From Arthrobacter sp. QXT-31 (GTDB lineage Bacteria > Actinomycetota > Actinomycetes > Actinomycetales > Micrococcaceae), in contig NZ_CP019304.1 in the NCBI RefSeq assembly GCF_001969265.1, positions 682,001 to 746,000 of the forward strand: a DNA stretch of 64,000 nucleotides, read 5' to 3'. Under the pieces are notes generated by a model that made no database searches, was not told the origin of the DNA, and saw only the letters and a list, made by a program, of their open reading frames with translations. The position numbers and the translations under genes were made by a program. Of this stretch, positions 42,352 through 64,000 are shown one piece after another. Each line of letters begins with the position of its first letter. Position 1 is the stretch's first letter.

Positions 42352-45300
42352 CTACTTCCGGCTTTCAGGAGGTAGCGCTATCTGGAGCTTGCGCACCTTG
42401 CCCCTGCCCACAAGGTAGCCACGGCCCGGAATGAAGTCCGTGCCGACCCGTCCGAGTGACGTGCTGAGGAGGCTGTCGCCGTCGATATCGCCCGGATTGA
42501 TCAGCAGTCCCCTCCTGCCCGACTTGAACGGCTGCGCCAGAGACCATGCCGAAGACCAGGTGGACGTTTCAGATTCGCCCACCACCCACTGGTCAGCCTT
42601 GATGGACGCGGCGACGAGCCGTTCGATCCCGGATTCCGCCAGGGTGTTGGTGAACTCCGTGAGCCCCTCGATGAAGATGGCCACTTTGCCGGGATTGGCC
42701 GAGGCATGGTCCGTCAGCGCTTCCACAGCCTCCTCAACGTCGTCGGCCCCCACCAGCGAGCGGTCCCAGACCGGCAGCGACGCCACGGCGGACTTGCGGG
42801 CACCGAGGTAAACCAGTTCAGTGTCCGGATTGGACCGGCGCAGCGCGTAGGCCATGGTCACGAGGGCAACTGTCCGTCCGGCGCCTGGCGGGCCCGCGAG
42901 CAGCAGCGGGCCCTTCGCCATCAGCGTGGCCGGCTGCAGCGTCTCGTCGTCCACGCCGATCACGGGCAGGTCGGGCAGGCCGGCAGGCAGGATGTCCAGG
43001 TCGATCTGCTCGGGCAGCCGCTCGATCCGCGGAGCCCGCTCCACGCCCTGGCGCAGCATGGCCTCGCTGAGTTTGTGCACCTCGCGCGCCTGCAGGGCGA
43101 GGTTGGAGTTGCCGCCCAGGACGGAGAGCTGCACCTCGAGGCCGCCCAGCAGCCCGCGCCCGGGAGGCGACCCCTTGCCCAGGACGTCCCTGGGCACGTC
43201 CATGGTCAGGTAGTCGTCCTCGGCGGACAGCCGTAGCACCAGCCGCCGCTGGATGGAGGCAAGCAACGACGCCGGTACGGAGTTGGGCCGGTCAGCGCTG
43301 ACGACGAGGTGGATGCCCAGGGGACGGCCGTCGGTGGCAAGCTGCAGGAAAAGGTCCCACAGGCCGGAGAGCTTGCTGTACTCGTAGGCCTCACGGAAGG
43401 CCGACATGCCATCCACCAGCACGAAGATGCGCTTTTCATCCGGCATGCCGGCCAGCCTGCGGTACTCCCCGATGGTGGCGGCACGGACCTCGGCGAAGCG
43501 TTTGGCCCGGTCCTCGGCGAGATCGCTGAGCCAGCGCAGGAGCCTGCCCACGCGCTCCACGTCGTCGCCGTCGATGATCCCACCCACGTGCGGGAGCTCT
43601 TCGAGCATCCTGAGCCCCGCGGAGCCGCAGTCGATCCCATAGACGTGGACCGGCCCGCCACGGGGCGTGACGGCGGCGGCGATGGCGATGCCCCGCAGGG
43701 CCGCTGACTTGCCCGAGCCGCCGGTGCCGTAGATGGCCATGTTGCCGTCGTTGTCCGGTTCGTAGAAGACGGTGGGCTGGTCCTGGCGGGCGGGATCGTC
43801 CGCCACGCCCAGCAGGAGCCGTTCGTCGGTGCGCGGGTTGGGCAGCAGCGAGAAGTCGTAGGTGGTGGCCAGTTCGTTCAGCCACGGCTTCCGCGGCGGT
43901 TCTATGGCCAGCAGGTCAGCGGCGGCGATGACGTTGGCGGTCATCCTGGCGATGTCGTTGGGGCCGGCCGGTTCTTCCTGCACGGCGGTGTCGGGGGCCG
44001 GCGCTTCCCAGGCGGGACCGGACCCGAAGGCCATCTCCACGATGTCGACCTGCGGGCGCTGCGGCCGTTCGGTGGTCCAGCCGCCGGCGTAGCCCGTCTG
44101 GAAACCCTGGATCCGGCCGGGACCGGTCTTGGCAGCACCGCGGCCCGGGATGGAGGGGTCGAAGTATGCGGCGTCCGGCACGCCGAGGATGTCGGTGGCG
44201 TCATCCTCGTCGGCCATCCGCAGCGCCACCCGCAGGTTCGTGTTGGCGCGCAGGCTTTCCTTGATCACACCGGCCGGGCGCTGCGTGGCGAGGATCAGAT
44301 GCAGGCCAAGGGACCGGCCGCGGGCGGCCACGTCAACCACGCCGTCCACGAACTCGGGCACTTCGGTGGCCAGGGCAGCAAACTCGTCCACCACGATCAC
44401 CAGGTAGGGCGGGGCCTCGGGATCCGCCTCGCGCTGGAGCGCGAGCAGGTCCTTGGCCTTTTTCCTGTTGAGCAGGTGCTCCCGGTAGTGGAGTTCAGCC
44501 CGGAGCGAGGTAAGGGCGCGCCGCACCAGGTGCGGCGAGAGGTCGGTGACCAGGCCTACGGTGTGCGGCAGCTTCACGCAGTCGGCAAACGCGGCGCCCC
44601 CCTTGTAGTCCACGAACAGGAAGCTGACACGGTCCGGGCTGTAGGCAGTGGCCATGCCCATGACCCACGACTGCAGGAACTCGGACTTGCCGGCACCGGT
44701 GGTTCCGCCCACGAGCGCGTGCGGGCCTTCGTTCTTCAGGTCCAGGTAGAGGGGCTCCACGCCCTTGGAGCCCACCAGGGCACGGAGCGAGCCGTTGTCC
44801 TTGCGGTTGGCCACAGCGGTGGAGCCAACGGAGTTGTTCTCCTGCCAGCGCTCTGCCACGGCCTGGGGGTTGTCCAGGAAGTCCTTGCCCACCAGCGCCG
44901 CATAGGACACGGCCCGGGGCAGGTTGGAGTCGTCCTCCAGCGGTTTGCCGGCGTCGACCACGGGCGAGAGCATGCGCGCCAGCTGGCCGGCCAGTTCGGC
45001 GTCGAGGCTTTCGCAGCTCACGGGGTAGGTGTGGCGGCCCAGCCGGACCTGGCCGGTGGTGGTGCCGTGTTCGCCGTCCACGGCCATGAAGTCACGGCAG
45101 GCGGCCGGAAGGGATTCGACGCCGGCCGCGACCCACAGGACGTGGACGCCTGCGTCCGGGCCGCGTTCCACAAGCCGGGTCAGCCGTCCGCGGTCCACCG
45201 GCGCGTCATCCTCGACGATCACCAGCACCGAGGGCAGCACCGGCGGCGGGACGTCAGCTGATTCCTCGACGATGCCAGGCCGCTGCACGGGTCCCTGCAG

Positions 45301-46812
45301 GCGCATGGCGGCCTCGCGGAGTTCCACGAGGTCCTCGATCCGGGCCAGCAGGCTGGTGCCGCCTGCCGAACCGGCCGCCAGGTGGTCGCCGCTGAGCGGG
45401 CTGTGGCTCGAGCCGACGTGAGGCAGCCACTGCAGCCAGTTCCACCGTTCCCGGGACCGGGCCGAGGTGATGGCCGCCACGGCCACCTCCGCCGGGGAGT
45501 GCAGGCCCACGAGCTGCAGCACCACTCCCCTGGCCACGTCATCGACGAGTCCGCGCGGCCCGGCCAGGCCGAAGGAGCCGGCGGACCGCAGCTGGGAGAC
45601 CACCGGCACGCCCTCGATCTGCCGGAACTGGTCCAGGCAGTCCTCGATCTCGCGCCGGTATTCCGTCTCCGTTTCGGAGGTGTTCGGCTCCTCGAAGGGG
45701 ATCCGCGAGGGCACGGTGCCGAGCCCGAACCGGAGCGCCAGGAACCCGGAGTGCTCCGGCCGGTGCGTCCACAGCAGCGGGCCAAGCTTGTAGATGGAGT
45801 CGACGGTGTCGCTGACCGACGGCGCTTCCTGGAGCCGGACGGCCCGCTCCACGCGCTGCAGCTCGGTGGCGTCCTGCCGGAAAGCCGCCATGGCCGCCCG
45901 GAACTGCTTCAGCTGCTCCTTGCGCTCACGCCGGCTCTGGAATTTCTGGTCCACGTAATGGCCAACAATGAACAGCGGCATCATCAGCATGAACACCATG
46001 GACATCAGGTTTTGGGTCACCGAGAACAGCACCGCGCCCATCATCAGCGGGGCGATCAGCATGATGAAGGGGAATGGGTGGTGGTCCTGCCGCCGCGGTC
46101 CAGCCGGGGGCACCCTCTTCCCGGGCGCAAAACGCGGCACCACCCGCGGGGACCGGTTGAAGTCCACCAGGGGCGACGTCGGAACTGCCGCACCGCTGCG
46201 CGCCAGCGGCACAACTGTCAGCACGGTGTCGCCCAGCGTGACGGTGTCGGAGGAATTCAGCGTGGCCCGGGTGACCGGGAGGCCGTCCATCTGCAGGCCG
46301 TTGGCGGAGTTCGTATCGACGATCTCGATGCTCTCGCCCACGGTGATGCGGGCGTGCCGCTTGGATGTCAGGGGGTCGGTGAGCCGGACATCGACGTCCC
46401 GGCCGCGCCCGATGTAGCTGGTGCCGGAGGGCAGTGAGAACTCCCGTCCGACGTCGGGACCGGAAACGATGCGCAGCGTGGCCGCAGCCGGGCCGCGGTC
46501 CGCGGCAGGGCCGGCGCCGTTCGGGTTGCCGAACGTGTCGCTCACCTGGGTCAGCGACACGACCGAGCCGGGCCGCAGCCCGGACTCCAGCAGGTTGTCC
46601 GCCCGGTCGAGGACGATGCCGCGCATGCCGCCCGCGACGAAGGCCTCGTCAATCCGGAGTGAGAGATTGGCCGGAGCGGGTTCGTGCCGCCGGGCGGGAT
46701 CGGCGGTCCACAGTTCGGTGGCGATGTCCGCGACTGTGGCGCGGCCGTCCACGGTGACGGCCAGGTCCTTGGCTTCGGCGGGGTCGCGGCGCAGGGTGAG
46801 TCGGATCCTCAT
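42352..46812 (-). CDS. FtsK/SpoIIIE-type ATPase with FHA domain (EssC/EccC-like)
   Basis: 1486-aa membrane ATPase with the layout of type VII secretion motors. Parts: N-terminal ubiquitin-like strand region (1-90), a canonical FHA domain (about 112-200; YIGRGRDVDV, SKRH, NSANG), two transmembrane helices (about 249-266 and 270-287), then three ATPase modules. Module 1 is complete: Walker A GTTGAGKSE near 701 and Walker B VIVVDEFAAL. Module 2 has GTGGSGKS near 1028 but only FVLVDGM for Walker B. Module 3 has GPPGAGRTV near 1306, with Arg replacing the Walker lysine. It overlaps the upstream gene by 4 nt. It is not a DNA-division FtsK, as no gamma domain is seen. Confidence 0.88.
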   Translation of the reverse strand: MRIRLTLRRDPAEAKDLAVTVDGRATVADIATELWTADPARRHEPAPANLSLRIDEAFVAGGMRGIVLDRADNLLESGLRPGSVVSLTQVSDTFGNPNGAGPAADRGPAAATLRIVSGPDVGREFSLPSGTSYIGRGRDVDVRLTDPLTSKRHARITVGESIEIVDTNSANGLQMDGLPVTRATLNSSDTVTLGDTVLTVVPLARSGAAVPTSPLVDFNRSPRVVPRFAPGKRVPPAGPRRQDHHPFPFIMLIAPLMMGAVLFSVTQNLMSMVFMLMMPLFIVGHYVDQKFQSRRERKEQLKQFRAAMAAFRQDATELQRVERAVRLQEAPSVSDTVDSIYKLGPLLWTHRPEHSGFLALRFGLGTVPSRIPFEEPNTSETETEYRREIEDCLDQFRQIEGVPVVSQLRSAGSFGLAGPRGLVDDVARGVVLQLVGLHSPAEVAVAAITSARSRERWNWLQWLPHVGSSHSPLSGDHLAAGSAGGTSLLARIEDLVELREAAMRLQGPVQRPGIVEESADVPPPVLPSVLVIVEDDAPVDRGRLTRLVERGPDAGVHVLWVAAGVESLPAACRDFMAVDGEHGTTTGQVRLGRHTYPVSCESLDAELAGQLARMLSPVVDAGKPLEDDSNLPRAVSYAALVGKDFLDNPQAVAERWQENNSVGSTAVANRKDNGSLRALVGSKGVEPLYLDLKNEGPHALVGGTTGAGKSEFLQSWVMGMATAYSPDRVSFLFVDYKGGAAFADCVKLPHTVGLVTDLSPHLVRRALTSLRAELHYREHLLNRKKAKDLLALQREADPEAPPYLVIVVDEFAALATEVPEFVDGVVDVAARGRSLGLHLILATQRPAGVIKESLRANTNLRVALRMADEDDATDILGVPDAAYFDPSIPGRGAAKTGPGRIQGFQTGYAGGWTTERPQRPQVDIVEMAFGSGPAWEAPAPDTAVQEEPAGPNDIARMTANVIAAADLLAIEPPRKPWLNELATTYDFSLLPNPRTDERLLLGVADDPARQDQPTVFYEPDNDGNMAIYGTGGSGKSAALRGIAIAAAVTPRGGPVHVYGIDCGSAGLRMLEELPHVGGIIDGDDVERVGRLLRWLSDLAEDRAKRFAEVRAATIGEYRRLAGMPDEKRIFVLVDGMSAFREAYEYSKLSGLWDLFLQLATDGRPLGIHLVVSADRPNSVPASLLASIQRRLVLRLSAEDDYLTMDVPRDVLGKGSPPGRGLLGGLEVQLSVLGGNSNLALQAREVHKLSEAMLRQGVERAPRIERLPEQIDLDILPAGLPDLPVIGVDDETLQPATLMAKGPLLLAGPPGAGRTVALVTMAYALRRSNPDTELVYLGARKSAVASLPVWDRSLVGADDVEEAVEALTDHASANPGKVAIFIEGLTEFTNTLAESGIERLVAASIKADQWVVGESETSTWSSAWSLAQPFKSGRRGLLINPGDIDGDSLLSTSLGRVGTDFIPGRGYLVGRGKVRKLQIALPPESRK

Positions 46813-47513: not shown

Positions 47514-47559
47514 ATTCCGTGCCTCCTCGATGGGTAGCGTCCTTGTTGTCATGAGCCGG

Positions 47560-49155
47560 CTACTCCTGCAGGCATGCGATGGAATCCGGGCCGCCCGGCG
47601 AGGCGCTGCCGTCGGCCCTGACAAGGATCACCTGGAGGCATATGGGCGGGTCAATAAAACCGGAAATGAAGGCCTGGTTGGTCGTTGTGGTTTCAAAGGG
47701 GCCGTCCTCCTTTACGGACTTGGCCCGGTACTTGAACGTGTCACCCTCTTTGGGCTGCGGATTCGTCCAGGAGAAGACAATGATGTTTGGGTCCTCTGCC
47801 TTTGGTGCGGCAGCGAGGCCTTCCACGTCCGGCACCGTCCCGTTGTCCAGGGCGTCCGCCGGCGGCTTCTTCACCTCCGCGGTTTCGGGCCCGCTCGGCG
47901 TCTGGGGGGCGGCGTTGGCCACCACCAGGCCCACGGCGGCGGCGAGGGCCAGCACGGTGGCTCCGGAGATGGCGAGCCACAGGTTTCGCTTGGAGCGGTC
48001 CTGCGCGTGGCCACCCGCGGGCTCGGCTGCTTCCTGCGGCGGCTGGGCCGCGCGGTGGACCGTCGTGTCGGCGGCAGCGGTGTAGCCGGTGTCGGCCGCG
48101 TGGAAGGCGGGGGCAGGTGGCACGTCAGCGGGGGCAGCGGGCACGTCAGCGGCGGCAGGGGGCAGCGGCTTGGTCCGCGACGGGAAGGTGGGGGCGCTTC
48201 CGGTCCGGTCCGGATCAATGGACGCGACGCTGCGGACGCGCGTCTCCTCCACGCCGTCGTCCAGGTGCACGTCCTCTTGGCGCTCCTCCAGCACCTCGAA
48301 CGGCGTGACGGACAGGTTGAGCTCGGCCTGGATCCGCTGCAGTGCCAGGGCGAAGGCGTGGGCCGAGGAATAGCGGGAGGCGGGTTGCTTGGCCATGGCG
48401 GTGGCCAGCGCCAGCTCGAGGGATTCCGGCACGTCGGCGCGTCCCAGCCGCGGGACGGGCATGCTGGTGATGCGTGAGATGAGCTCGCGCTGCGAGTTGT
48501 CGGCACCCGGCAGGACGAAGGGTGAGCGTCCGGCGAGCAGCGTGTACAGGGTGGCGCCGAGCGCCCACACGTCCACCAGCACGCCGTCGACGTTGCCGTC
48601 ACGGAACTGTTCCGGCGGGGACCAGGGGATGGACATCCCGGCGTCCTCGTCAGCGTCGCCGGCCAGGGTGCCGGAGATGCCGAAGTCGGTGAGGGCGGGA
48701 CGGTTGTAGTCGGTGACCAGGATGTTGGCAGGCTTGATGTCCCGGTGGGCGATGCCCGCCCGGTGCGCCGTTTCGACGGCGGAGGCCACCTGGATGCCGA
48801 TCGCCAGGACCTCGTCCACGCTGAAGCGCTGCCGGCGGTATCGGACATCGAGGCTCGGCCGCGAGCAGTACTCCATGGCGAGGTAGGAATGCCCGTCCTC
48901 GGTCACCTCGGCTTCAAAGATGGTGACGATGAAGGGGTGCGACGACAGCTGGGCCATGAGGTTGGCCTCGGACTCGAAGCGGCGCCGCGCGCCCTCCGTC
49001 TTGAGGCCGGACAGCAGCACCTTGACGGCGACCTTGCGGCGCGGCCGGTCCTGCTCGTAGAGGTAGACGTCGGAGAAGCCGCCCGATCCGAGCAGGCTGA
49101 CGTAGCTGAAACCGGGAATGCGGGGCGGTGGAGCCGCCGGCCGCTTGGAACTCAC
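47560..49155 (-). CDS. transmembrane Ser/Thr protein kinase
   Basis: 531-aa Hanks-type kinase. The glycine loop is LLGSGGFSDVYLY, the ATP-binding Lys lies in VAVKVLL, the catalytic loop is HRDIKPANIL and the metal site DFGISG. The activation segment reads GMSIPWSPPEQF and lacks the usual Thr pair and GTPxYMAPE form. After about residue 280 there is a Pro/Ala linker, one transmembrane helix (about 400-422), and an outside domain of about 100 residues with FN3-like strands (NIIVFSWTNPQPKEGDTFKY). The GTG start overlaps the previous stop (GTGA). It likely phosphorylates the FHA-linked partners in this operon. Confidence 0.9.
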   Translation of the reverse strand: MSSKRPAAPPPRIPGFSYVSLLGSGGFSDVYLYEQDRPRRKVAVKVLLSGLKTEGARRRFESEANLMAQLSSHPFIVTIFEAEVTEDGHSYLAMEYCSRPSLDVRYRRQRFSVDEVLAIGIQVASAVETAHRAGIAHRDIKPANILVTDYNRPALTDFGISGTLAGDADEDAGMSIPWSPPEQFRDGNVDGVLVDVWALGATLYTLLAGRSPFVLPGADNSQRELISRITSMPVPRLGRADVPESLELALATAMAKQPASRYSSAHAFALALQRIQAELNLSVTPFEVLEERQEDVHLDDGVEETRVRSVASIDPDRTGSAPTFPSRTKPLPPAAADVPAAPADVPPAPAFHAADTGYTAAADTTVHRAAQPPQEAAEPAGGHAQDRSKRNLWLAISGATVLALAAAVGLVVANAAPQTPSGPETAEVKKPPADALDNGTVPDVEGLAAAPKAEDPNIIVFSWTNPQPKEGDTFKYRAKSVKEDGPFETTTTNQAFISGFIDPPICLQVILVRADGSASPGGPDSIACLQE

Positions 49156-51008
49156 AGGATCTCCTCAAAGCGCAGGGACACGTCATCGCCGAGTTCTGCG
49201 ATGTCGCCGTCCAGGACAATGGCCATTTCATTCTGGGCAAGGCGCCGCGGCGGTTGGCCCTCGCGGACCAGCACGGTGCCGTTGGTGGCCTTCAGGTCGC
49301 ACAGCATCACGTGCCAGCCTTCCAGCCGGACCTCCACGTGCGACCTCGAAATGTCGCCGCCGGGGCTCGGCACCTGGACCAGCCGCGGCATGGTGCCGCC
49401 CTGGACCCGGGACACGGACGGCTGCCGCCCGATCACCAGCGACTCGTCGAGGTCGATCAGCTCCCCGGTGGACAGCCGCAGCCGGCCCAGCCGGGGGCGC
49501 GGCACCTGGACGGCGACGTCAGGCAGCTGAGCCCCGCAGGTGAAGCACTGGCTGCTGGTGGGCGGGTTGGCGTGGCCGCCGGGGCATACCCGGGCCAGGA
49601 CCAAAGGGCCGTTGCCGGGCACATTTTCCCCGCCGGGTGTTCCAGCGCCCTGGCCGGGTTCCTGCCCCTGCCCCGCCTGCGCTCCGCTGGTGGGAAGGTC
49701 GCTCCTGAAGATGGTCTGCCCGTCGTGGTCCCCTTCCGCCGGCGCGCCCGCCCCGGCTGCGGGGATGAACGACGGCGGGACCTGCAGTCCGGTGAACGAC
49801 GGCGGACTGCCGGGAGCCGGGAAGGAGGACGGTACCTGGGGTCCCGGGACCGACGCCGGGACCTGGAGCCCAGGGACCGACGCCGGAATCCGGGGTTCCG
49901 GGGCGCCGTCTCCCACGGTGGCCCACGGCACCGACTCGATCAGTCCCGTCTGGGCCGGCACCGGCGGTTGCGGCACGGCTGCCTTTTCGCCCGCAGTGGC
50001 TGGCCGGCCGGCTTCCCCGGGGTCAGCCTTCTGGTCGGCCGTTTGATGGCCTGCAATCCGCTGGCCTTCAGATTCCTGGCCTTCCGATTCCTTGCCTACA
50101 GATTCCCGGCCTTCAGTCTCTTGGCCCTCAGTTTCCTGGCCTTCAGTTTCCTGGCCCGGGACCTCCCGCGCGGCGGCCTCCGGGGCTGCGGGAGCACCGT
50201 CGTCGTCCTCGTCGCCGGACCGCACGGCTGCGTCCTCGATACGCCGGACTACCGTTTTGTCCCACAGGTGGTCGTAGGAGCTGGTGAACTCGGTGGCCGG
50301 GCTTTCGTCCTGCTCCCGTTCTTCCTGTGCCGGTGCTTCCGGCGCGTGGATTTCCTCGGGCAGGACTTCCCCGGACAGTGCTTCCTCGGCCCGTGCTTCC
50401 CGCGGCCAAGTCCCGGACGTCGCAGCGCCGGTCTCAGTAAATCCCGTCACGGTTTCCTCCCCGGGTACAACCAGGGTCTCGGCCGATGCCTCCAGCGGCG
50501 GCACAGCAGTCTCCGGCACGTTCTGCAGGGCACCACCGGGTTGGGTGACGCTGACGCGCAGCGACTGCAGGAGCACGGCCCCTTCAACCACCGGCAGTTC
50601 AGGTACACGGAGCAGTTCAGGCACACCCTGGTGCACCGCGGCGGCGCCAGGAACGGCCACGCTGAACCATTCGGGCGCCTCCAGCCACCGCTCGGTCCAG
50701 GTGGTGACGTTCCGGCCGTCGAGTGTCACAGGACCCGACGGAAGCTGGACCGTCAGGTCAATGTCGCCGCGCAGGAAGACCCGCAGCGAGTCGCTGTATC
50801 CGATGATGCCGAAACACCGGGTGGCTGACAGCGGTGCACCGAACCCGCCCGTCACAGCGTGCAGCACTTCGGCTGCATCCGGGGCGCCCGCGAGCAGATC
50901 CCACACGCTGCTGACCAGCGGGGCCGGAGTGGCAGGGTCCAGGATCACCGCAGTTCCCGATCTGACCAGGCCCAGCCATCCTCCGGGGACGTAGCTAGCT
51001 GCGGCCAT
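49152..51008 (-). CDS. FHA domain protein with zinc ribbon and long disordered linker
   Basis: 618-aa cytoplasmic protein. The N-terminal 180 residues form an unassigned beta-rich domain. A low-complexity part follows, with GQETEGQETEG-type repeats and Pro-rich runs. Near 510 there is a putative zinc ribbon (CPGGHANPPTSSQCFTCG), and the C-terminal 90 residues are a canonical FHA domain (VIGRQPSV, ISRSHVEV, KATNGT). The FHA should bind phosphothreonine, perhaps on the kinase encoded next. The ATG at 51008 lies inside the end of the phosphatase gene (14-nt overlap), with GAGGA 8 nt upstream. Confidence 0.82.
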   Translation of the reverse strand: MAAASYVPGGWLGLVRSGTAVILDPATPAPLVSSVWDLLAGAPDAAEVLHAVTGGFGAPLSATRCFGIIGYSDSLRVFLRGDIDLTVQLPSGPVTLDGRNVTTWTERWLEAPEWFSVAVPGAAAVHQGVPELLRVPELPVVEGAVLLQSLRVSVTQPGGALQNVPETAVPPLEASAETLVVPGEETVTGFTETGAATSGTWPREARAEEALSGEVLPEEIHAPEAPAQEEREQDESPATEFTSSYDHLWDKTVVRRIEDAAVRSGDEDDDGAPAAPEAAAREVPGQETEGQETEGQETEGRESVGKESEGQESEGQRIAGHQTADQKADPGEAGRPATAGEKAAVPQPPVPAQTGLIESVPWATVGDGAPEPRIPASVPGLQVPASVPGPQVPSSFPAPGSPPSFTGLQVPPSFIPAAGAGAPAEGDHDGQTIFRSDLPTSGAQAGQGQEPGQGAGTPGGENVPGNGPLVLARVCPGGHANPPTSSQCFTCGAQLPDVAVQVPRPRLGRLRLSTGELIDLDESLVIGRQPSVSRVQGGTMPRLVQVPSPGGDISRSHVEVRLEGWHVMLCDLKATNGTVLVREGQPPRRLAQNEMAIVLDGDIAELGDDVSLRFEEIL

Positions 51009-53366: not shown

Positions 53367-55822
53367 CGCCGGAACCCCCGTGCAGCCAGGGCGGCCCGGG
53401 CCTCAGCCAGCAGCGACCGGGGTGAGAACCGCGCCTGCTGGCGCCGCCAGAAACCGAGCGTTCCTGTCATCTCCTTCAGCGAGCCGTCCACCACGTCCCA
53501 GTACTCCCGCACCTCATCCTCGCTCGGCTGGCCCGCGCCGAAGATGGAGGCGTCGGCGCGGTGCGCCAGCAGGGTTGTGGTGGCGCCGGCGGCAGGGAAC
53601 GCCTCGGCCACCACTGCCGCCGTCTCCCGCCTGGTTGCGCGGCTGTCCACCGGGGCGCCCATGTCTGTGGCCAGGCTAAGGACCTCGCTCCAGCCGCCGC
53701 CGACGCGCTGGACAGGATCGCCACCGGTGAAGCGGGCCTTCCGGCGCCGCAACTTGAGCAGTGCGATCAGCAGCAGCGGCAGGGCCAGAATGCCCACGGG
53801 GATCAGGGCGATGCCGATGGCGGTGAGGATGGGACCCCAGAACAGCCACGGGTTGGTTTTCTTCTCGTCGGCGTCGAGCGCGTCCGGAGAGGAGTCCGGC
53901 GGCAGGTCGGCGGGTTCCTGCGGCGGTGGCGGCGGCTGCAGGACCTGGGGCTTGGGCTTGGACTTGTTCTCCGGGTCGGGCGGAATGGGGATGTTGTCCT
54001 TGGGCGGTGTGGGGTCGAAGGCCACCCAGCCCACGCGGTCAAAGGCCACCTCCACCCAGGCGTGGACATCCTTGCCGGTTATCTTGATGTCGCCGGCGCC
54101 GTTCTCCGGGCTCTTCGGGTCAGGGTAGAACCCCATGATCACGCGTGAGGGAATGCCCAGGTGCCGCAGCATCAGGGACATCGCAACGGCGTACTGCTCA
54201 TCGTCGCCGAGCATTTGCTTGGCGGTCAGCAGGTCGCGGATGCGCGCCGCACCGTGCCCGGAGACGCTGGGAAGCTGCCCGTCGGCAATGAGCCCGTTGC
54301 TGAAGGCGCCCTTCTTCTGGAAGTGGGCCTCGATCTGCCGGACCCGGTCCACCGCGGTCGGGGCGTCCGCGGCCAGGTCATTGGCCTGGGCGCCCACCAC
54401 CGGCGGCACGTCGGTGACGTCAGGCAGGCTGACCTTGGCGAAGTCGTATTGCGTGAGCTGCCCGTGCTCCAGCTTCACCGGGTCCGAGATCTGGACGGTG
54501 TAGGAGTCACCCCTGGACAGGCCCTGGGTGGTCACCGCGGTGTCTGTGCCGGAGTTGAAGTACAGCCCCGAGGCTGCGCCGGACGAGTCCGGGGCAAAGC
54601 TGAGCCCGGTGGTCTTCCGTCCGCCCGGAACGAAGTAGCCCTGGTAGTCATCGATGGTGATGTCCAGGCTGTAGTCGTTCGTCGGGACCGGGTCCGTGGA
54701 GTCGGCGAGTGTGTTGATCGACTTCGCGTCCCCCACCTTGCTGAAGCTGCCCGAGCCGTTCGGGTCCATCGTGTAGTTGGTGCCGTTGAAGGAGTCGAGC
54801 GCCCCGAGCCGGACCCGTGCGTCCTTGGGCAGCCCCTTGACGGTGAACAGCGTGTCGTCCTTCTTGTCCTTGACGAAGTTGCGGAAGCTCGCCAGCGGCG
54901 TGACGTACGCCTTCGGATCAAAGGGCGGTACGACGACGTTGCGGAGGACGCGCCGCTCGTCACCGGCGGCGATCAGCGGCGATACCGCCGCGGTGATTCC
55001 CACCGTTGCGGCCAGGACGGCGGCGCCGGCCGCCAGGCGGCGCGTGCGCGCCTTCGCCGCCGTGCCGGCGTCGTGCTGGGGACGGTTCACCGAAACCTTG
55101 TGGGTGTCGCGCCGGCGCAGCGCGTCCCGCCGAAAGGTGGCCCAGGCGATGCCGACCACCGTCAGGGCAATGCCCCTTTCCACGGTCAGGAATCCGGCGT
55201 TGGTGCTGAACGCGATCCCGGTGACGAACAGCACCAGGACCGGCAGCAGCGGCCAGTACGGGCTGCGGATGCGCCAGGTCAGGGCGCCCGCGGCAGCGGC
55301 GGTGATCAGGGCGCTCAGGAAGGGAACGATCAGCACGCCGCCTGCGGTGCCCACGGGCACCCCGACGGTGAGCATGTCCTTCCAGGCAAAGACGACGCCG
55401 AGCAGCAGCGTGCGCAGCGATTCCAGGCTGGGAATGAACCCTGCGATCGCGGCGCCGGGGACGGCCAGGGCTGTTCCCAGCACGAGATAGCTGCCGAAGG
55501 CCAGTGCCGTGGTGATCAGGAGCCCCAGCCGGAAGTGGGCGTTGAGCGCAGCGACGGCCAGCCCCAGGACAATGCCGCCAAACCCGGCAATCAGGTAGTA
55601 GGGGTCGCCGCCGAAGCTGAGGCTGAACCCGAGGACACCAAGCCCGAGCAGAATGGTGAGGGCACCGGCGTCGAGCACAAAATGCCACCGCGGCCGGCCG
55701 TCGGCGAAGGCGGACCCGGCGGCCGGGCGGACCGGGCGGCGGGGGCTTTGTGAATCGTTTTGCCGGCGGGAGCTGTCCGAACGGTCGTGCCGACGGGGGC
55801 GGAGACCGGTGGCCTCACTCAT
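53363..55822 (-). CDS. TgpA-like transglutaminase-fold membrane protein
   Basis: 819-aa membrane protein of the DUF3488/transglutaminase-like (TgpA) family. About six helices occupy residues 45-290, an outside domain with the transglutaminase core follows (about 490-610), then one helix (about 660-690) and a C-terminal cytoplasmic part. In the core the position of the catalytic Cys is Asp541 (GDDEQYAVAM), while His587 (VHAWVEV) and Asp603 (FDPTP) are kept at normal spacing. It is therefore probably not a normal transamidase; it may bind substrate or act as a scaffold. Start and stop overlap the neighbours by 4 nt. Confidence 0.88.
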   Translation of the reverse strand: MSEATGLRPRRHDRSDSSRRQNDSQSPRRPVRPAAGSAFADGRPRWHFVLDAGALTILLGLGVLGFSLSFGGDPYYLIAGFGGIVLGLAVAALNAHFRLGLLITTALAFGSYLVLGTALAVPGAAIAGFIPSLESLRTLLLGVVFAWKDMLTVGVPVGTAGGVLIVPFLSALITAAAAGALTWRIRSPYWPLLPVLVLFVTGIAFSTNAGFLTVERGIALTVVGIAWATFRRDALRRRDTHKVSVNRPQHDAGTAAKARTRRLAAGAAVLAATVGITAAVSPLIAAGDERRVLRNVVVPPFDPKAYVTPLASFRNFVKDKKDDTLFTVKGLPKDARVRLGALDSFNGTNYTMDPNGSGSFSKVGDAKSINTLADSTDPVPTNDYSLDITIDDYQGYFVPGGRKTTGLSFAPDSSGAASGLYFNSGTDTAVTTQGLSRGDSYTVQISDPVKLEHGQLTQYDFAKVSLPDVTDVPPVVGAQANDLAADAPTAVDRVRQIEAHFQKKGAFSNGLIADGQLPSVSGHGAARIRDLLTAKQMLGDDEQYAVAMSLMLRHLGIPSRVIMGFYPDPKSPENGAGDIKITGKDVHAWVEVAFDRVGWVAFDPTPPKDNIPIPPDPENKSKPKPQVLQPPPPPQEPADLPPDSSPDALDADEKKTNPWLFWGPILTAIGIALIPVGILALPLLLIALLKLRRRKARFTGGDPVQRVGGGWSEVLSLATDMGAPVDSRATRRETAAVVAEAFPAAGATTTLLAHRADASIFGAGQPSEDEVREYWDVVDGSLKEMTGTLGFWRRQQARFSPRSLLAEARAALAARGFRR

Positions 55823-57180
55823 GCTGCAGCCTTTCGCAGGACGGAGGGAAGGTCGGAGAGATCGCCGACCGTGAGCACGGTGAGGTCACCGATGTTGGCG
55901 CGGGCCGGGGCAGCGCCAAGGTCGGCCCGCATGGCGAGGCTGCGCACACCGGGAGGCACCGAGGCGGCAGCGGAGCGCAGCTGGGTGGCCGTCACCTGGC
56001 TGCCCACGACGAAGAAGACCACCGAGGCATTGGGCACCGTGTCGGCAAGCGTGCGGGCGAGGTCGACGGCGGTCTTCCGCAGTGGAGTGCCGACGATCCG
56101 GGTCATGTCGTCCAGCATGTTGCGGCCGGTCTCGCAGCGCAGCGGACCGCCCTGGGTCAGGACATCCAGCTCGCGCTGTTCACGGATGGCCTGCCGGCCA
56201 ATGGACGCCGCTGCCGATATGGCCAGTTCAAATTCCTCTTCCGAGGCGTATTCGTCCGTGTTGATGGACAGTGAAATGGCCAGGTGGGCGCGGCGGGTTT
56301 CCTCGAACTGGCGGACCATGAGCTTGTTGGTCCGGGCCGTGGTTTTCCAGTGGATGTGCCGCCGGTCGTCACCCGGAACGTAGTCGCGCAGGGCATGGAA
56401 GGAAACGTCCGCGCTGGACAGCTCCGTGGTGGGCATGCCTTCCAGGTCCCGGATGAACCCGGCCGCGGAACCGGCCAGCGCCACCGTGCGGGGGTGCACG
56501 TAGAGGTCCTCCGGTTCCGTCCAGAGCACCTGCCGGCGGAGCAGGTGCAGCGGATCGGCCCGGACAGAACGGACCGGGCCCACCACGATGACGGCACGCC
56601 GCGCCGTCGGGATGGTGAAAAGGTCTTCGTGGACCTGCTGCGGTTTCATCCGCGGGAGGTGGAAGACGGCGGTGGCAGAGCCGACGGGCAGTTCCAGGTC
56701 AGCCGGCAGGAGCGGGCGGGCAGACGTGTTGGACACGGCGATGCTTCCAACGGCGCTGTCGCCCACCGCGACCCTGGTCCGGGCGAGGTCGAGGAGCACG
56801 CCATAGGAGGAGCGGCCCAGGATGAAGCCGACGGCGATGACGAAGAGCACCAGTGCCGCAATGGCTGCCGCCTTGGCCTCCTGCCAGCCGTAGGCGTCCC
56901 CGGCCGCAAACAGCAGGACCGCGGCGGCCAGCACGGACCAGCCCAGGACGCTGACCACGGACAGGACGGGCCGGACGCGCCGGTCCCACAGGCCGGCGGC
57001 CACCCGCCAGGCGGGGCCCAGCGCGAGACGCGCGGTGCTGCCCGCGTCGGACCATAATCTGGATGAGTGCTCCTGGGGCCGGAACTTCGGCAGCCGGATT
57101 CCGGACCCCCCGAGACCGGACCACTGCACTTTAGGCAGCCGCACCTTAGACGGCGGCGCGCTGCTGCGGCGCTGCGACAT
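55819..57180 (-). CDS. DUF58 domain protein
   Basis: 453-aa protein, the usual partner of MoxR ATPases and TgpA-like proteins. Two helices lie at about residues 72-115. The DUF58 signature is FHALRDYVPGDDRRHIHWK followed by TARTNKLMVRQFEETRR; a von Willebrand A-like fold follows (LAISLSINTDEYASEEEFEL). Such proteins are thought to be chaperoned or remodelled by MoxR. The start at 57180 overlaps the end of the moxR gene by 35 nt; a ribosome site is weak and another start within 60 nt cannot be excluded. Confidence 0.85.
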   Translation of the reverse strand: MSQRRSSAPPSKVRLPKVQWSGLGGSGIRLPKFRPQEHSSRLWSDAGSTARLALGPAWRVAAGLWDRRVRPVLSVVSVLGWSVLAAAVLLFAAGDAYGWQEAKAAAIAALVLFVIAVGFILGRSSYGVLLDLARTRVAVGDSAVGSIAVSNTSARPLLPADLELPVGSATAVFHLPRMKPQQVHEDLFTIPTARRAVIVVGPVRSVRADPLHLLRRQVLWTEPEDLYVHPRTVALAGSAAGFIRDLEGMPTTELSSADVSFHALRDYVPGDDRRHIHWKTTARTNKLMVRQFEETRRAHLAISLSINTDEYASEEEFELAISAAASIGRQAIREQRELDVLTQGGPLRCETGRNMLDDMTRIVGTPLRKTAVDLARTLADTVPNASVVFFVVGSQVTATQLRSAAASVPPGVRSLAMRADLGAAPARANIGDLTVLTVGDLSDLPSVLRKAAA

Positions 57181-58117
57181 CGGCCAGGACGCGCCCCAGG
57201 ACGGCTTCGGCGGTGGCACCGGAGAACTCGGCTTCGGGGTCCATCACGAAACGGTGGGTCCAGACGACGCCGGCGAGGTCCTTGATGTCGTCCGGCAGGA
57301 CGAAGTTGCGGCCCTGGCTCGCGGCCCACACCTTGGCCGCCCGGACCATGGCGAGGGCGCCGCGGACGGAGACACCCAGGCGGGTCTCCGGGGCGTTGCG
57401 GGTTTCCTCGCAGAGCCTGGAGATGTACTCCAGCACGGCGGTATCAACGTGCGTGGTGGCGGCCAGATCCGCCATGTCCGCCACAGCCTGCGTGGTGATG
57501 ACGGGGTGCAGGTCCCGGGACCGGTCCTTGAGGTTGGTGCCGCCCAGGAGCTGGACGGTGGAGGCGTGGTCCGGATACCCGATGGAGGTCTTGATCAGGA
57601 AGCGGTCCAGCTGGGCCTCGGGCAAACGGTAGGTGCCGGCCTGCTCGATCGGGTTCTGCGTGGCCATCACCATGAATGGACGGCCGGCCTCGTACGTGGT
57701 GCCGTCCACGGTGACGCGCGACTCCTCCATGACCTCCAGCAGCGCCGACTGCGTCTTGGGCGAGGCGCGGTTGATTTCATCGGCGAGCACGATGTTGCTG
57801 AAGATCGGCCCCTTGTGGAACTCGAACTTCTGGGTCTTCTGGTCGTAAATGGTCACGCCGGTGACGTCGGAGGGCAGCAGGTCCGGCGTGAACTGGATGC
57901 GGCTGTTTGACCCCTGGACCGTGGCCGCCAGGGCGCGGGCCAGCGACGTCTTGCCGGTGCCCGGGGCATCTTCGAAGAGGACGTGGCCTTCGGCGAGCAT
58001 CGCGGTGAAGGTCAGGCGGATGACGTGGGCCTTGCCCAGGACTGCCTGGCCCACATTCGCAACGAGCTTCTCGAACGTCCCTGCAAACCAGGCGGCCTGC
58101 TCGGTTGTCATGGTCAT
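57146..58117 (-). CDS. MoxR family AAA+ ATPase
   Basis: 323-aa ATPase of the MoxR branch, a chaperone-like remodeller for vWA proteins. Walker A is EDAPGTGKTSLARAL (about 50-64), Walker B VLADEINRASPKTQ, sensor 1 MATQNPIEQAGTYRLPEAQL, and the C-terminal lid is present (SVRGALAMVRAAKVWA). The ATG at 58117 has GAGG 7 nt upstream. It is followed by DUF58 and TgpA genes, the standard MoxR-DUF58-TgpA set. Confidence 0.93.
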   Translation of the reverse strand: MTMTTEQAAWFAGTFEKLVANVGQAVLGKAHVIRLTFTAMLAEGHVLFEDAPGTGKTSLARALAATVQGSNSRIQFTPDLLPSDVTGVTIYDQKTQKFEFHKGPIFSNIVLADEINRASPKTQSALLEVMEESRVTVDGTTYEAGRPFMVMATQNPIEQAGTYRLPEAQLDRFLIKTSIGYPDHASTVQLLGGTNLKDRSRDLHPVITTQAVADMADLAATTHVDTAVLEYISRLCEETRNAPETRLGVSVRGALAMVRAAKVWAASQGRNFVLPDDIKDLAGVVWTHRFVMDPEAEFSGATAEAVLGRVLADVAAPQQRAAV

Positions 58118-58188
58118 GTTGATTCCTCTTAGGTTGGTGCTGGTGCGGGATGATGCAGCGGGCTCGGGTGCCGGCCGTGGGCAGGTGG

Positions 58189-61100
58189 TCAGCATCCGCC
58201 GGGCCGCGAACCGTACAGGTCCACGGTGGTCGACTTCACGTACCATCCGCTCTTGGCCGACTCGGTCAGGCGGTACCACGGTGTGCCGTTGCCGTAGATG
58301 TCCTTGGTGCAGTCGATGGACAGCTTGCCCCAGGAACGCTCCACCCAGCCGACGCCGCACTTGGCGGGGCTGCCGGGTGTGTAGGAGTCAGGCAGGCCGG
58401 GCTTCCCGGGGCAGGTGCGGACGCTGCTGGCGTCGACCTGGATCTGCGACGCCGGCGGCGGCGGGGTCGGGTCGTTGCCGGAGGTTGCATCTGCGCGTCC
58501 GATGGCCCCGGCGACCACCGTGACGGCCTTGACCCGCAGGGTCCGGGTCTGGTTCCAGCCGCCGCCGGAAGCGTCGAACCTGGTGGCCTTTCCGACGCTG
58601 GTCCAGGCGCCGCCGTCGAGGCTGACCTCGTAGTGGTCCAGGGGCCGCCCGTTGGTGCCTGTGGAATTCCAGGTCCAGTGGACCTGGGGGTCGCCGGTGG
58701 CCGACTTCCCGCCGCTGACATTCGGCGCGTTCGGCGGTGCGTACGGGTTTCCCGAGCCAATGGCCTTGGCATCGCCGGACACGTTGTTCTTGGTGGAGGA
58801 GGCGATGATGTTGACGGTGACGTCCCGCCCGTTTGGCTGGCCGGTGATGGTCCCGCCGCCGGCGTTGATGGGCCCGGACCCGTAGGCGGTGGACCACCGG
58901 TAGCTGATTTCCGACGCCTGCGACCCGTTCCGCTGCGCCTCGGTGAGGGGCGTGAAGGTCACATCCAGCTGGCCGCTCGTCCCGTTCGCCCGTACGGTCC
59001 CGCCGCCCACGGTGCCGGGTTTGCCGGCGGCCCTGACGGGGGCGGACTGGGCGCTGGTTCCGGACGTGCCCGCCTTGTTGGTGGCGGAAACGGTGAAGGC
59101 GTAGTCGGCCTCGGAGTTGTCCACTGTGACATTCAGCGACGTGCCGGAAGCCACCTGCTGGCTCTTGACCACGGCTCCGCCCCGCAGGGTTGTCAGTGTG
59201 TAGGCGGAGACCGCATCGCCGTTGTTGTTCGGGGCCGTCCAGCTGACGTTGACCTGGGACTGGCTGCCCACGGAGCCGGCCCCGGCCGCGCTGGGGGCAG
59301 CCGGCGTCGCCGGCACCCCGGCCGGTACCTCGGCAGCGGAGTACGGGCTCCACTCCGACGGATCCTTTGCGTCGTTGCGGGCCAGGACCCGCACCTTGTA
59401 GGCCACGCCGTTGGTGAGACCCTTCCAGACGTAGCTGGTGGATGTCAGGTTCTGGATCTGCGGGTTCTGGCCGGCGGGTGCGGGCGAGATTTCCAGATCG
59501 TAGGACTTGACCGGAGAGCCCTTGCTGGCCGGTGCCTGCCAGGTCACGGCCAGCTGCTGGTCGCCGAACCTCAGCGCCGGAGCCAGCGGCATGTCCGGCT
59601 TGACGTCGGGCCGGACCTCGGCGGAAACCGGTGACCTGTCGGACTCGCCGAACTCATTCGTTGCCGTCACCTGGAAGTGGTACTTGGTGTTGTTGACGAG
59701 GTTGTTCAGGGTGCACGAGTTGGCCGGGCAGTCCTGCGAGTAGCCGCCTTCGCCGTAGACCGTGTACTTGGTAATGGGTGATCCCCGGTCCGCCGGCGCC
59801 GTCCAGTTCAGCAGCGCCGTGCCGTCTCCCACGCTCTGCGCCTGCGGGGTGGTCGGGGCCAGGGGCTTGTCCTTGACCGTGAGCCGGATCCGGGCGGTGG
59901 CGTACCGCGAGGCGTCGTCGGTCTTGTCGCCGACCGTGTAGGACACCACCAGGGTGCCGGAGAATCCGGCCGCGGGCGTGACCGTCACCGAGTCGCCGCT
60001 GACGGCGGCAGTGCCCTGCCCTGTCTCGGTGGCGACGCCGATGATCTTCAGCGGAGTCTCCGGGAACGGGTTGGCATCGTTCGCCAGCACCTTGATGGTG
60101 ACAGGCTTGCCCGCTGCGGCGTTGTCCTCGATGTCGTCGTTCGCCACCGGCTTGGCCCGGTTTGTCGCCGTCACGGCCAACCGGAACGTGGCGGTGGATT
60201 CAAGGCCGCGCGGGTCCTTCGCCTTCACCTGCACGGACCCTGCATCGCCAGGCCGCAGGCTGTCCTGGGCCGACACCTTGAGGGTGGCACCGTCGGTGGA
60301 CACGTTGAAGCCCTGCGGGACCGCGCCGGCGATCTCGTACTTCATGTTGCCGGCGTCGTCCCCGTCGGGGTCGGTCGTGAGTTTGGCCAGGTCCGCGGAG
60401 GCCGAGTCACCCAGCGGGACATCAACCGAGCCGCCGAGCAGGACGGGCGGGTTGTTCCGGTTGGGATCGGGCAGCACCCTGGTCCTGATGCTCAGGGTGG
60501 ACTTCAGGCCGGCGGGGTCGTCCGGGCCGGAGCCGTCCGTCACTTCGAAGGTGATGGATCCGGGGCCTGCGTAGTCCCGGTCCGCGGTATACCTGACGGC
60601 CGTGCCGTTGCCGGCCACCGGGTTGCTGCCGTCCGCGCCGATGAGCTTGATCCTGTCGGTCTGGGTCAGGCGGGGCGAGCGGCCGTCCCGGACCTTGACC
60701 CATTCGCCGAGGTCAGCGGTCACGGACTGGCCGGCGACAACCTCAAGGACCTCGTCCTTGGCGAGGGTGGGAACCTGCTGGCCGAGGCCCGGCACCCAGA
60801 TGATTGCCGTCGACTTCTGGCCGTCGACGTCCTCCACCGTGTAGGGCACCAGCTGCGGCTGCTCGGTCAGCTCCACGATCATGTTGCCGTCCGCGCCCGG
60901 CCGGGCGGTTTCGGCGGCGCTGCTCATCTTGAGGTTCTCGCCCACGCCGTCGGGGTCTTCGTCGTTTTTGAGCACCGGAACGTCGACGGCGGTCTTGCCG
61001 AGCGTCTGCGCGGAGGTCACCCTGTCGTCGCGGGCGATCGGTGCCTGCAGCGGGACGCTGCTGTCCACCACCATCCGGATGGCTGCCTGGGCGGAAGCTC

Positions 61101-64000
61101 CGCGCTCGTCGGCCACCGTGTAACGGAGGTTGACGCTGCCTTCGGTGGCCGGAGCCTGCAGGAGGATGCGTCCGCTTTGCTTGCTGACGGTTGCCTTCAG
61201 TGCGGCGTCGGCTTCGATGCCGTCGCTGACGATCCTGATGGGGTCGCCGTCCGGGTCGGTATCGTTGCCGGCCGCGTCGACGGCGATCTGGCGCCCGGGC
61301 CGGACCTTGACCTGGTCGTCCACGGGGGTGGGCTTCTGGTTGGTGTCGCCGCGTGGTGCGATGCCCACGGTGACGGTGCCGGTATTCACGGCGCCCTGCC
61401 GGTCCACCACCTTGTAGCGGAACGTATCGGTTCCGGCGCCGTTCCCGGCGGCGATGAAGTCGATGAAGTTGCTGCCCGCCGTCGCCGTGCCCATGCCGGG
61501 CGTGCTGTCGATGGCCGTCAGCTGGACGGAGTCGCCGTCGGGATCAATGCCGTCCAGGGGAAAGGGAATGCGCACCGTACCCCCCGCCACCACCCGCGCG
61601 GTCAGGTTTTTGGGCTGTGGCCGGGAATTCTCGGCACCCTCCAGCGGCAGGATGTGGATGGTGACGGCGGCGGCGCTCTTCTGGCCCTGCGGGTCCACCG
61701 CGTTGTAGATCGCGCGCACGGTCTTGGGCTGGCTGCCGGCGATGAACCGGAGGGTGTTCTCCGAGACGAAGCTTTTGCCGTCCTCCGCGGGAACGGCCTG
61801 CGGCAGGACAGCGTCGACCGTCAGCTTTTCACCCTGCGGGTGGGTGTCATTGTCCAGGACGGGGATGGTCACGACGTCGTTCACGCGGACGTTGACCTCG
61901 TCGGGCTTGGGCTGCGGCGCTTCCACCACGGCGGGGGCGGGCACGGGCACCACCGACACACTGCCGGTGGCCGAAGCCTTGCCGTTGGACATCGTGTAGC
62001 GGAACAGGAACGGGTCCTTGGTGCCGGCGATGTCGGTGATCCGCAGGACGCTGTGGTCGATCACGCTCACCGAGGCGGTGGCGTTCTCGGGCACCGCGAC
62101 GGACTGCAGGACCAGCACGCCGCCGGACGGGTCGGAGTCGTTGGCCAGCGGGTCCAGCAGGACGCTGCCGCCGACGGGCAGCAGCGCCACGTCGTGGACG
62201 GCGACGGGGTTTCCGGAGTCCTTGCCGGATTCCACGTCCACCCGGATGAGGCCCTGGCTGCTCTGCGGTCCGTTGCTGGCCAGGTAGGTGAGGTACACCG
62301 GGCCCGGGGTGCGGCTCCTGAAGGTGAAGGTGCCACCGTCGGTGACCGGGCCCAGCTCTGCTGCTCCGCTGGCTTCCACCTGGGCGAGGCGCAGAGCGCC
62401 GCCGTTGGGGTCGACGTCGTTCTTCAGGGGCGCGATGACCAGGTCCTGGCCCACCACGGCGGTGACGTGGTCGGCGTTGACCACGGGGGCGAGGGCTCCC
62501 GGCGGCTGGACGTTGACCACCACCTTGCCCGTGGTGGTGGCGCGGCCGTCCCAGACGGACACCGTGACGCTCTTCTTTCCGGCCGTGGCGCCGGAGTCCT
62601 GGAAGGTGAGCAGGCCGTCGCGGCGGACCTTGACCTGGTCCTGGTCGTTGTCGGCGGTGGCTGACATCAGGACCAGGTCGTCGCCGTCGGGATCGGCCCA
62701 GTCGGTGAGGATGTTCTGGCTGACGGTCTTGCCCTGCTCCACGAGGAGCGTGGTGGGGTCGCCGCGTTTGAAGGCCGGGGGCCGGTTCTCGTCAGCTCCG
62801 ACGACGCTCAGGGTCACCTTGCCGCCGGCGGACAGGCCGCGTCCGTCCGCGGCCGTGTAATCGAACGTCTCGGTCCCGGGCGAGGCATCGGCCGGCACGG
62901 TGATCTGGAAGGCGGAGCCGCCGTAGATGCTTTCGATGCTGCCGGCCCGCGGGCCTTCTGCGCCAAGGGAGGCGGTCAGGACGTCGCCGTCGGGGTCGGA
63001 ATCGTTGTCGAGGACGCTCAGGACCGTGGTGCGCCCGGGACGGACACCGACGGCGTCGGGTTTCGTTTCGGGGGGACGGTTCGGTTTGGTGCGGTCCGGC
63101 AGGACGTTGATGGTGTTGTCGTCGGCGGACTCCTCGTCGGGGTCGTCAGCCTGGTTCTTGGGCGGAACAACGTCGTCCCAGTTGTTGACCAGCTGCATGT
63201 TCTGGTTGACCAGCCACACGTTGCCCGAGTTCACGTCGTTCAGGACCACGAGGTCGCGGTTGACGCGGAACACGTAGCTCGGTGATGCGCTGGCCTTGGG
63301 CACGGCGACGTTCTTGTCGTCCGCGTCATTGGTGCAGTCCCGGACATACTTGTTCGCGCCGGACCATGCCGCATGGATGCAGCCGTCCAGCTGGACCGGC
63401 GCTGCCGGCATCCCCTGGCCGCCGAAGGTCACGGTCTTCGCGGCAGAGCCGTTCAGCGGCTGCCTGAGGAGTGCCTTGCCGGTGGCCACAGCCACGGAGT
63501 CCGAGGCCGGGCCCGACTGCTGGAGCTTCGCGTCGCGGGCATCGGCCAGCGGCACTTCGCGCCCGCCGGGGAGGAACAGTTTTCCGGCGGCCGCGTCCAG
63601 GACCACAGGCTGGTCCCCCACGACGGCGAGCTGGAGGTCCCCCGCGCCCTTCAGCCCGTCCCACGTGCTGGTGTCGGTGCCGGTGGCTGCCCCGGAGGCG
63701 TCCACCGTGGTCACTGTCACCTGCCCCGTTTTCGGGTCGGCCGAATAGATCCGGTCATCCGGACCAACGGCGGACACCAGTCCCTGGGAACCGGCCACCG
63801 CGGGCTCGGTCGACTCCTCGTCGAAGGCATTGACCGTTGACGGTGACATCGCCCACATCTTGCCGGAAGCAGGATCGGTGACTGAAATGACGTCGGCGCC
63901 GAAACTCACCTGGGCCGAGCCGGGGAGCTTCTTGTCGCCGCCGAGCCGCATGTTGGCGGCGGATACCTGGTTCAGCGTGGCGCCGGATTCGTCGTCGACG
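58189..64000 (-). CDS. giant beta-propeller/Ig-like/FN3 surface protein (start outside window)
   Basis: At least 1936 residues, open at the right edge, so the N-terminus is missing. The visible part starts with a beta-propeller-like region of about 300 residues ([17 protein letters not shown]; repeated [18 protein letters not shown] strands). Then come about ten Ig-like/cadherin-like repeats marked by NDSDPDGD or a variant ([24 protein letters not shown]), then four or five FN3 repeats ([20 protein letters not shown]). A Cys-rich C-terminal domain ends in YGSRPGGC. No LPXTG is seen. Acidic DPDGD loops should bind calcium. It is 71 nt before the moxR gene and probably heads the operon. Adhesin-like or envelope structural function is inferred. 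Confidence 0.85.

Follow-up and report, generated by a model that had tools for sequence, protein, structure and literature searches.

A kinase, phosphatase and FHA gene set joined to a type VII ATPase in Arthrobacter: a probable phosphothreonine-regulated type VII variant with homologues of the bifidobacterial PFNA operon

The stretch analysed here, referred to as the window, comprises 64,000 nucleotides of Arthrobacter sp. QXT-31 (bases 682001-746000 of a 5.04-Mb genome on a single contig). On its minus strand, ten co-directional open reading frames (ORFs), overlapping in most cases, run from the gene for a giant surface protein through to position 42352, where a gene for a type VII secretion ATPase (ATPase A) ends (Table 1). 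The gene set and layout described in the original prediction are confirmed. With inner start codons used in place of the longest ORFs, the 4-nt overlaps at 55819, 53363, 51870, 49152 and 46809 are real, as are the 14-nt overlap between the PP2C phosphatase gene and the 648-amino-acid FHA gene (start 51008) and the 35-nt overlap between the MoxR and DUF58 genes (start 57180). The claim that the genes follow one another without real gaps holds for these overlaps, but small gaps separate the giant gene from the MoxR gene (71 nt) and the kinase gene from the 271-amino-acid gene (7 nt). The set is more than a chance assembly, because it recurs in relatives.

The proposed contents (a MoxR-DUF58-TgpA set, a Ser/Thr kinase, a PP2C phosphatase and an EssC/EccC-like ATPase) were borne out by Pfam, with matches to AAA_3/MoxR, DUF58, Transglut_core with a weak DUF4129, RDD with a zinc ribbon and FHA, PP2C, FHA, Pkinase, and FtsK_SpoIIIE (two stretches) with FHA. 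The FHA domains of g5 and g7 score just under the Pfam cut-off, and their motifs are intact and conserved. Phosphothreonine-binding motifs in 19-36 orthologues agree with a count of three canonical FHA domains and one degenerate one: SKxH is present in 27/27 g5 sequences and S..H in 31/32 g7 sequences, most of the 19 ATPase A rows have the motif intact (one lacks it, two have it altered), and g9 retains GR with the other phosphothreonine-binding residues lost. The structure model of g9 has a sandwich followed by a C-terminal helical domain, which we read as a winged helix. The kinase looks active from its motifs, with HRDIKPAN in 30 of 33 sequences (HRDVKPAN in 2, HRDITPAN in 1) and DFG in all 33; GDSR and SDGL are present in all 31 PP2C sequences.

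Table 1. Genes and domains of the operon, in window coordinates
Feature	Position	Strand	Remarks
Giant Big_9/cadherin-like/fn3 surface protein	58189..64000	-	2029 amino acids when complete; gene runs 278 bases past the window end
MoxR-type AAA+ ATPase	57146..58117	-	Likely start 58117 or 58111
DUF58 protein	55819..57180	-	Pfam
TgpA-like membrane transglutaminase-fold protein (PFNA 'tgm' homologue)	53363..55822	-	Pfam and comparison with PFNA loci
g5: zinc ribbon, RDD membrane domain, canonical FHA	51870..53366	-	Pfam, motifs
PP2C Ser/Thr phosphatase	50995..51873	-	Pfam, motifs
g7: N-terminal domain that is conserved but unmatched in Pfam, then a low-complexity linker, a CxnC segment resembling a zinc finger, and a canonical FHA domain at the C-terminus	49152..51008	-	
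Ser/Thr kinase: transmembrane segment, short extracellular domain, HRDxKPAN and DFG conserved	47560..49155	-	
g9: degenerate FHA-like sandwich, C-terminal helical domain read as winged helix	46809..47513	-	
ATPase A: type VII (EssC/EccC-like), two transmembrane segments, three P-loop domains, D1 Walker A/B intact	42352..46812	-	
ATPase A residues 1-90, predicted ubiquitin-like grasp topology	46543..46812	-	
ATPase A residues 109-202, FHA domain of GarA/OdhI/FhaA type	46207..46488	-	

ATPase A is a membrane-bound EccC/EssC-family ATPase with tandem P-loop domains. It scores 527 bits against the NCBIfam model EssC (cut-off 778), 340 against EccCa (509) and 277 against EccCb (347), and EccC-type, YukB and EccC5 chains headed a sequence search of the PDB. 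Orthologues, accepted at 900 bits or more or as two long fragments within one draft genome, occur in 55 of 198 genomes sampled from the window's order (the order sample; related genomes in it are not independent), with G125, which has a broken-up match only, left out. A scan of named contigs, of which 80 of 587 confirmed stretches were kept, added Sinomonas, Cellulosimicrobium, Cryobacterium, Brachybacterium, Demequina, Promicromonospora, Rhodococcus, Mycobacterium, Mycolicibacter, Dietzia and propionibacterial metagenome-assembled genomes; the window's own copy shares 95% identity with its counterpart in Arthrobacter globiformis NBRC 12137 and 94% with the one in Arthrobacter ipis. In a quick, midpoint-rooted tree, which carries a long-branch warning and has neither a sure T7SSb row nor a named TsdC row, ATPase A (24 rows) forms one clade (support 100) adjoining the lineage of loci L098-L100 (96), and the two together adjoin a group holding two TsdC-like ATPases (96), with the EccC rows outside. 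An ATPase labelled Sporosarcina was dropped as a T7SSb reference, as it groups with a second ATPase of the window's genome (ATPase B) and probably comes from an Arthrobacter-like contig. A contig labelled Sporosarcina beigongshangi (L169) carries the end of the operon in an Arthrobacter-like version, with 65% identity in the ATPase, and this assembly is probably mixed or misnamed. ATPase B itself, an FHA-bearing FtsK/EssC-like protein of 1464 amino acids (C1:3940323-3944717 of the genome; L012:6323-10717, minus strand), looks solitary among unrelated metabolic genes.

The N-terminus of ATPase A likely has a ubiquitin-like topology: the AlphaFold2 model of residues 1-215 shows strand-strand-helix-strand-strand-(helix)-strand at 2-89 (block pLDDT, the model's per-residue confidence, 76-94), followed by the FHA sandwich. 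The FHA part matches FhaA, OdhI and GarA, and FHA chains filled the fold-search matches for the N-terminus. A profile of the head matches a redesigned ubiquitin (E 0.0023), and the Pfam YukD model gives weak matches in 4/46 and 3/40 ATPase A N-termini, the window's own not among them. Aligned by hhalign with four EccD domains, the head reached a probability of 10%, although its score lay above all 200 column shuffles. We take kinship to YukD/EccD as suggestive. The head is also similar to TsdC-like N-termini above shuffles; the N-terminus of ATPase B was not distinct from shuffles (6/100 equally high).

The link between ATPase A and the giant protein, previously drawn from operon order, is now backed by conserved gene neighbourhood, and the comparison of gene order across relatives that the original prediction had proposed shows that the linkage recurs. 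Among 54 order-sample loci (own locus excluded), MoxR, DUF58 and TgpA accompany ATPase A in 32, the kinase and g9 in 32, both sets in 29 and the giant gene in 31; g5 is its commonest companion, in 41. The 29 full loci spread over 12 genera and nine families and come in two gene orders, g7-kinase-g9 preceding the giant gene in six of them (L065, L072, L075, L076, L080 and L082). The kinase, phosphatase and FHA proteins and the PFNA envelope set (so named after the bifidobacterial operon discussed below) are thus linked to ATPase A over 12 genera. The neighbouring ATPase lineage likewise has MoxR-DUF58 downstream in 3/3 loci read, with a TgpA match in 2/3. Contigs of Rhodococcus, Mycobacterium and Mycolicibacter carry only g5, ATPase A and a diverged WXG100 protein, WXG-A, with the other modules not within 10 kb; the same three genes are carried by a Mycobacterium genome with four EccB matches and by a Rhodococcus genome (L283 and L284). 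The core is therefore probably g5-ATPase-WXG, with the signalling and envelope modules as frequent additions.

The original prediction had noted that the window holds no WXG100 gene and suggested that the machine could be a distinct one. Whole-genome scans indeed place none at the window coordinates, but the idea of a genome devoid of WXG100 proteins was rejected by the same scans: the genome encodes a canonical WXG100, WXG-A and two longer proteins with a WXG-A domain. A PF06013 search gives the canonical WXG100 and three weak matches besides. WXG-A (consensus W-x-G-x-D-A..F-R..W) is here an 88-amino-acid gene at C1:2349301-2349561, unlinked to the operon, and the longer proteins, of 371 and 297 amino acids, bear the domain at the N-terminus. 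The genes for WXG-A-domain proteins at L003:10-1788 and L002:139-1758 are each followed by a gene of about 217 amino acids with no convincing Pfam match; these may possibly be substrate-partner pairs. The canonical WXG100 (C1:1351583-1351834, L013) lies between a histidine kinase gene and an RNase H-like gene near groEL. It is uninformative as a specific partner, PF06013 passing its cut-off in 179/198 genomes and ATPase A occurring in 55/198. Nor does PF06013 suffice as a detector, as it gives no match in G062, G090, G132 and G140 despite WXG-A there.

In relatives, WXG-A often lies directly 3' of ATPase A. Downstream sequence is available for 51 order-sample loci: WXG-A lies there in 24 and a gene of hairpin family B or C in 15, and outside the window's genus such a WXG100-like or hairpin gene adjoins ATPase A in 38 of 45. 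Family B reaches 46.6 bits against PF06013. Of the 72 named contigs that extend 1 kb or more past ATPase A, 45 have one of the three families there. The WXG-A profile matches 58/198 order genomes (35/55 with ATPase A, 23/143 without), including 25 of the 29 full-operon genomes (none in G074, G137, G181 and G186), and in several of the 23 genomes without ATPase A the related lineage L098-L100 adjoins WXG-A. ATPase A, a clade of its own in the quick tree, is normally encoded with WXG-A or another WXG100-like hairpin protein, usually together with g5. A WXG100-family partner is encoded adjacent to the system in relatives and unlinked in the window's own genome, and the step from the absence of WXG100 to a machine other than type VII fails outside the window.

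The giant gene and its neighbours have homologues in the Bifidobacterium operon called PFNA (PMC8430577, PMC10688814), whose genes run pkb2-fn3-aaa-duf58-tgm-(prpC-hyp-fha). The available parts of PMC8430577, PMC6803598 and PMC10688814 describe the cluster and report that its kinase Pkb2 phosphorylates the MoxR protein. By sequence comparison, the giant-MoxR-DUF58-TgpA set, the kinase and the phosphatase are homologous, and all five core PFNA genes (kinase, fn3 protein, MoxR, DUF58 and transglutaminase) occur in the window. In a family that we take from its gene content to be Bifidobacteriaceae-like, a TgpA match is present in 11 of 14 genomes. In the nine loci read, the homologues of kinase, giant, DUF58 and TgpA follow the PFNA order as published, with MoxR in eight and PP2C in four; against window-clade profiles their giant proteins score about 940-1100 bits and their TgpA proteins 415-535. 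The window differs in order, its kinase being the eighth gene rather than the first with the giant second, and in its type VII ATPase, which the published cluster, as far as the available text goes, does not have. PFNA is stated in the available part of PMC10688814 to occur in bifidobacteria only, which the window and the order loci contradict. Within PMC, which leaves preprints and subscription papers outside, no paper among the matches listed joins PFNA genes with type VII secretion. The giant protein, with Big_9/cadherin-like and fn3 domains, has by hydropathy one N-terminal transmembrane segment (residues 17-35, signal-anchor-like), as do the nine Bifidobacteriaceae-like homologues; no C-terminal transmembrane segment and no LPxTG were found. 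The genes directly upstream of the giant gene encode a protein with a cyclase domain and a bPH_2 membrane protein (L005:8543-10388, minus strand).

Compared with known type VII systems, the locus shares an EccC-like ATPase and WXG100 proteins with T7SSa (ESX; EccB/C/D/E, MycP), but its genome has no match to EccB or a YukD-type domain and ATPase A falls under the EccCa cut-off. EccB (PF05108) gave no match in the own genome and three genus members and four in a Mycobacterium genome by the same search, in line with the earlier remark that the window holds no EccB; the YukD search, negative in the own genome, was positive in B. subtilis. With T7SSb (Ess/Yuk) it shares the best NCBIfam match, EssC, and an N-terminal FHA domain; it differs in scoring below the EssC cut-off and in having no separate YukD gene. 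T7SSe, from the parts of its description available, likewise combines a kinase, a PPM phosphatase, a separate FHA protein and WXG100 within one cluster, but is confined to Bacillota, has a separate ubiquitin-like TseB and is described with no PFNA set.

The closest counterpart is T7SSd (TsdA, TsdC, TsdD, TsdH, TsdI; Garrett et al. 2024, PMC11217815). According to the available part of that paper, it shares with the window's system its occurrence in Actinomycetota, a Ser/Thr kinase, WXG100 and a large Ig-like surface protein. A kinase corresponding to TsdD and an FHA-bearing ATPase with a conserved canonical phosphothreonine motif are present in both, and the ATPases are adjacent in the tree with a common N-terminal domain. 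However, ATPase A forms its own clade in that quick midpoint-rooted tree, apart from the two TsdC-like rows, and the window adds MoxR, DUF58, TgpA, PP2C, g5, g7 and g9. TsdI has a signal peptide and a C-terminal transmembrane segment, whereas the giant protein has the N-terminal segment only and many Big_9/fn3 domains; it also gave no profile match to the TsdI-like proteins of loci L273/L274. The part of PMC11217815 available names no Arthrobacter or Micrococcales. Two Bifidobacteriaceae-like genomes encode a kinase, a single-transmembrane protein of 147 amino acids, a 1797-amino-acid protein with N- and C-terminal transmembrane segments and an FHA-ATPase, matching T7SSd as far as it is described there. 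In these genomes PFNA and the T7SSd-like cluster lie about 25-35 kb apart on the same contig (L272/L273 of G082; L274 of G138).

Taken together, we consider it probable that the locus is a phosphothreonine-regulated variant of type VII secretion, with the giant protein as a membrane-anchored envelope partner and not a client. The original prediction of a distinct machine thus stands as regards an EssC/EccC-like ATPase with kinase, phosphatase and FHA proteins, but the machine would be a distinct type VII variant, not one distinct from type VII, WXG100 genes adjoining the ATPase in relatives. We infer that the system is phospho-gated, which substrates it exports, and that the giant protein has a role in the envelope. 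The kinase would sense an envelope signal through its external domain and phosphorylate threonines on partners, MoxR being a candidate by analogy with PFNA, where the homologous kinase Pkb2 is reported to phosphorylate it. Once phosphorylated, these partners would be bound by the FHA domains of ATPase A, g5 and g7, which would assemble or license the machine, and PP2C would reset it. The substrates exported by ATPase A would be WXG-A hairpins and proteins with a WXG-A domain. An N-terminal helix would anchor the giant protein, which may reach through the wall, with MoxR-DUF58 as a putative chaperone pair and TgpA as a putative maturation enzyme in a module that would build an envelope path or sensor. 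Within the window's genus, WXG-A would have moved away from the operon.

Several observations weigh against this reading. The MoxR-DUF58-TgpA set is absent in 22/54 loci, of which 14 retain g5 and five offer under 7 kb of sequence upstream (465 bases in one of these five), and close TgpA relatives occur in 45/143 genomes without ATPase A, so that the two sets are separable. These relatives were defined at E <= 1e-40, a cut of our own choosing, because some TgpA match exists in 178/198 genomes and offers no clean PFNA marker. None of the three hairpin families lies downstream of ATPase A in 12/51 order-sample loci, five of which, like the window, belong to the window's genus (WXG-A lies elsewhere in all six genomes), or in 27/72 named contigs, 22 of them Arthrobacter, Pseudarthrobacter or Paenarthrobacter. 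By profile, WXG-A is absent in 20/55 ATPase-A genomes. Family C has no Pfam support, the profiles of families B and C were seeded from ATPase A loci and the WXG-A seeds came from ATPase-A genomes. Finally, ATPase B and the canonical WXG100 in the own genome offer other possible pairings of ATPase and substrate.

The same separability feeds the strongest rival, that two independent systems, one type VII and one a PFNA envelope-stress or adhesion system, share an operon and one kinase. It fits the nine Bifidobacteriaceae-like loci, all with the PFNA set and kinase and no adjacent ATPase (MoxR detected in eight), and the Rhodococcus, Mycobacterium and Mycolicibacter contigs with ATPase A, g5 and WXG-A only. 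We nevertheless regard it as rather unlikely: the two sets stay linked in over half the loci, across nine families, with internal reordering; TgpA relatives are enriched in ATPase-A genomes (47/55, against the fraction above in the others); and the neighbouring ATPase lineage also has the MoxR-DUF58 pair downstream.

In our judgement it is improbable that, as originally proposed from operon order and the lack of WXG100 in the window, the machine has nothing to do with type VII substrates and has the giant protein as the client that it exports or assembles. The linkage of giant and ATPase in 31 loci agrees with this idea, but WXG100-like genes adjoin ATPase A in 39/51 loci, and the giant's N-terminal transmembrane segment, present also in the nine Bifidobacteriaceae-like homologues, suggests Sec insertion. 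Its module also occurs without ATPase A, as the TgpA relatives indicate, and ATPase A without it. An anti-phage defence island is scarcely credible and was dropped: PADLOC kinase and FtsK/HerA models do match, but only through generic kinase and P-loop domains, with none for DUF58, TgpA and g9, and the locus, unlike a mobile island, sits at a conserved chromosomal place beside ligA in the genus members read. Between ATPase A and ligA lies a 219-amino-acid ORF (41589-42248, minus strand), with a comparable ORF at this position in one genus member (L126). Pro/Ala-rich, with a signal-like N-terminus and a C-terminal transmembrane segment, it was ruled out as a WXG substrate, and it also differs from TsdH, the short T7SSd protein with a single transmembrane segment.

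Beyond the probable type VII variant, we offer as a tentative possibility, one we would not yet favour, a new phosphothreonine-gated subtype widespread in Actinomycetota. Its core would be g5 and ATPase A with a fused ubiquitin-like domain, the PFNA module would act across the envelope, and bifidobacterial PFNA would be a relic or free-standing half; in T7SSd, too, the ubiquitin-like part would be fused to the ATPase. No ubiquitin-like protein is reported for T7SSd in the available part of PMC11217815, and the predicted head of ATPase A may be an answer to that missing component. If this is true, PFNA would be half of an export or envelope machine and not primarily an operon for communication with the host immune system. 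The locus as analysed here joins two literatures, on type VII subtypes and on the bifidobacterial PFNA operon. In Arthrobacter, one operon of a soil genus holds the kinase, phosphatase, FHA proteins and type VII ATPase together, which makes the suggested phospho-control directly testable.

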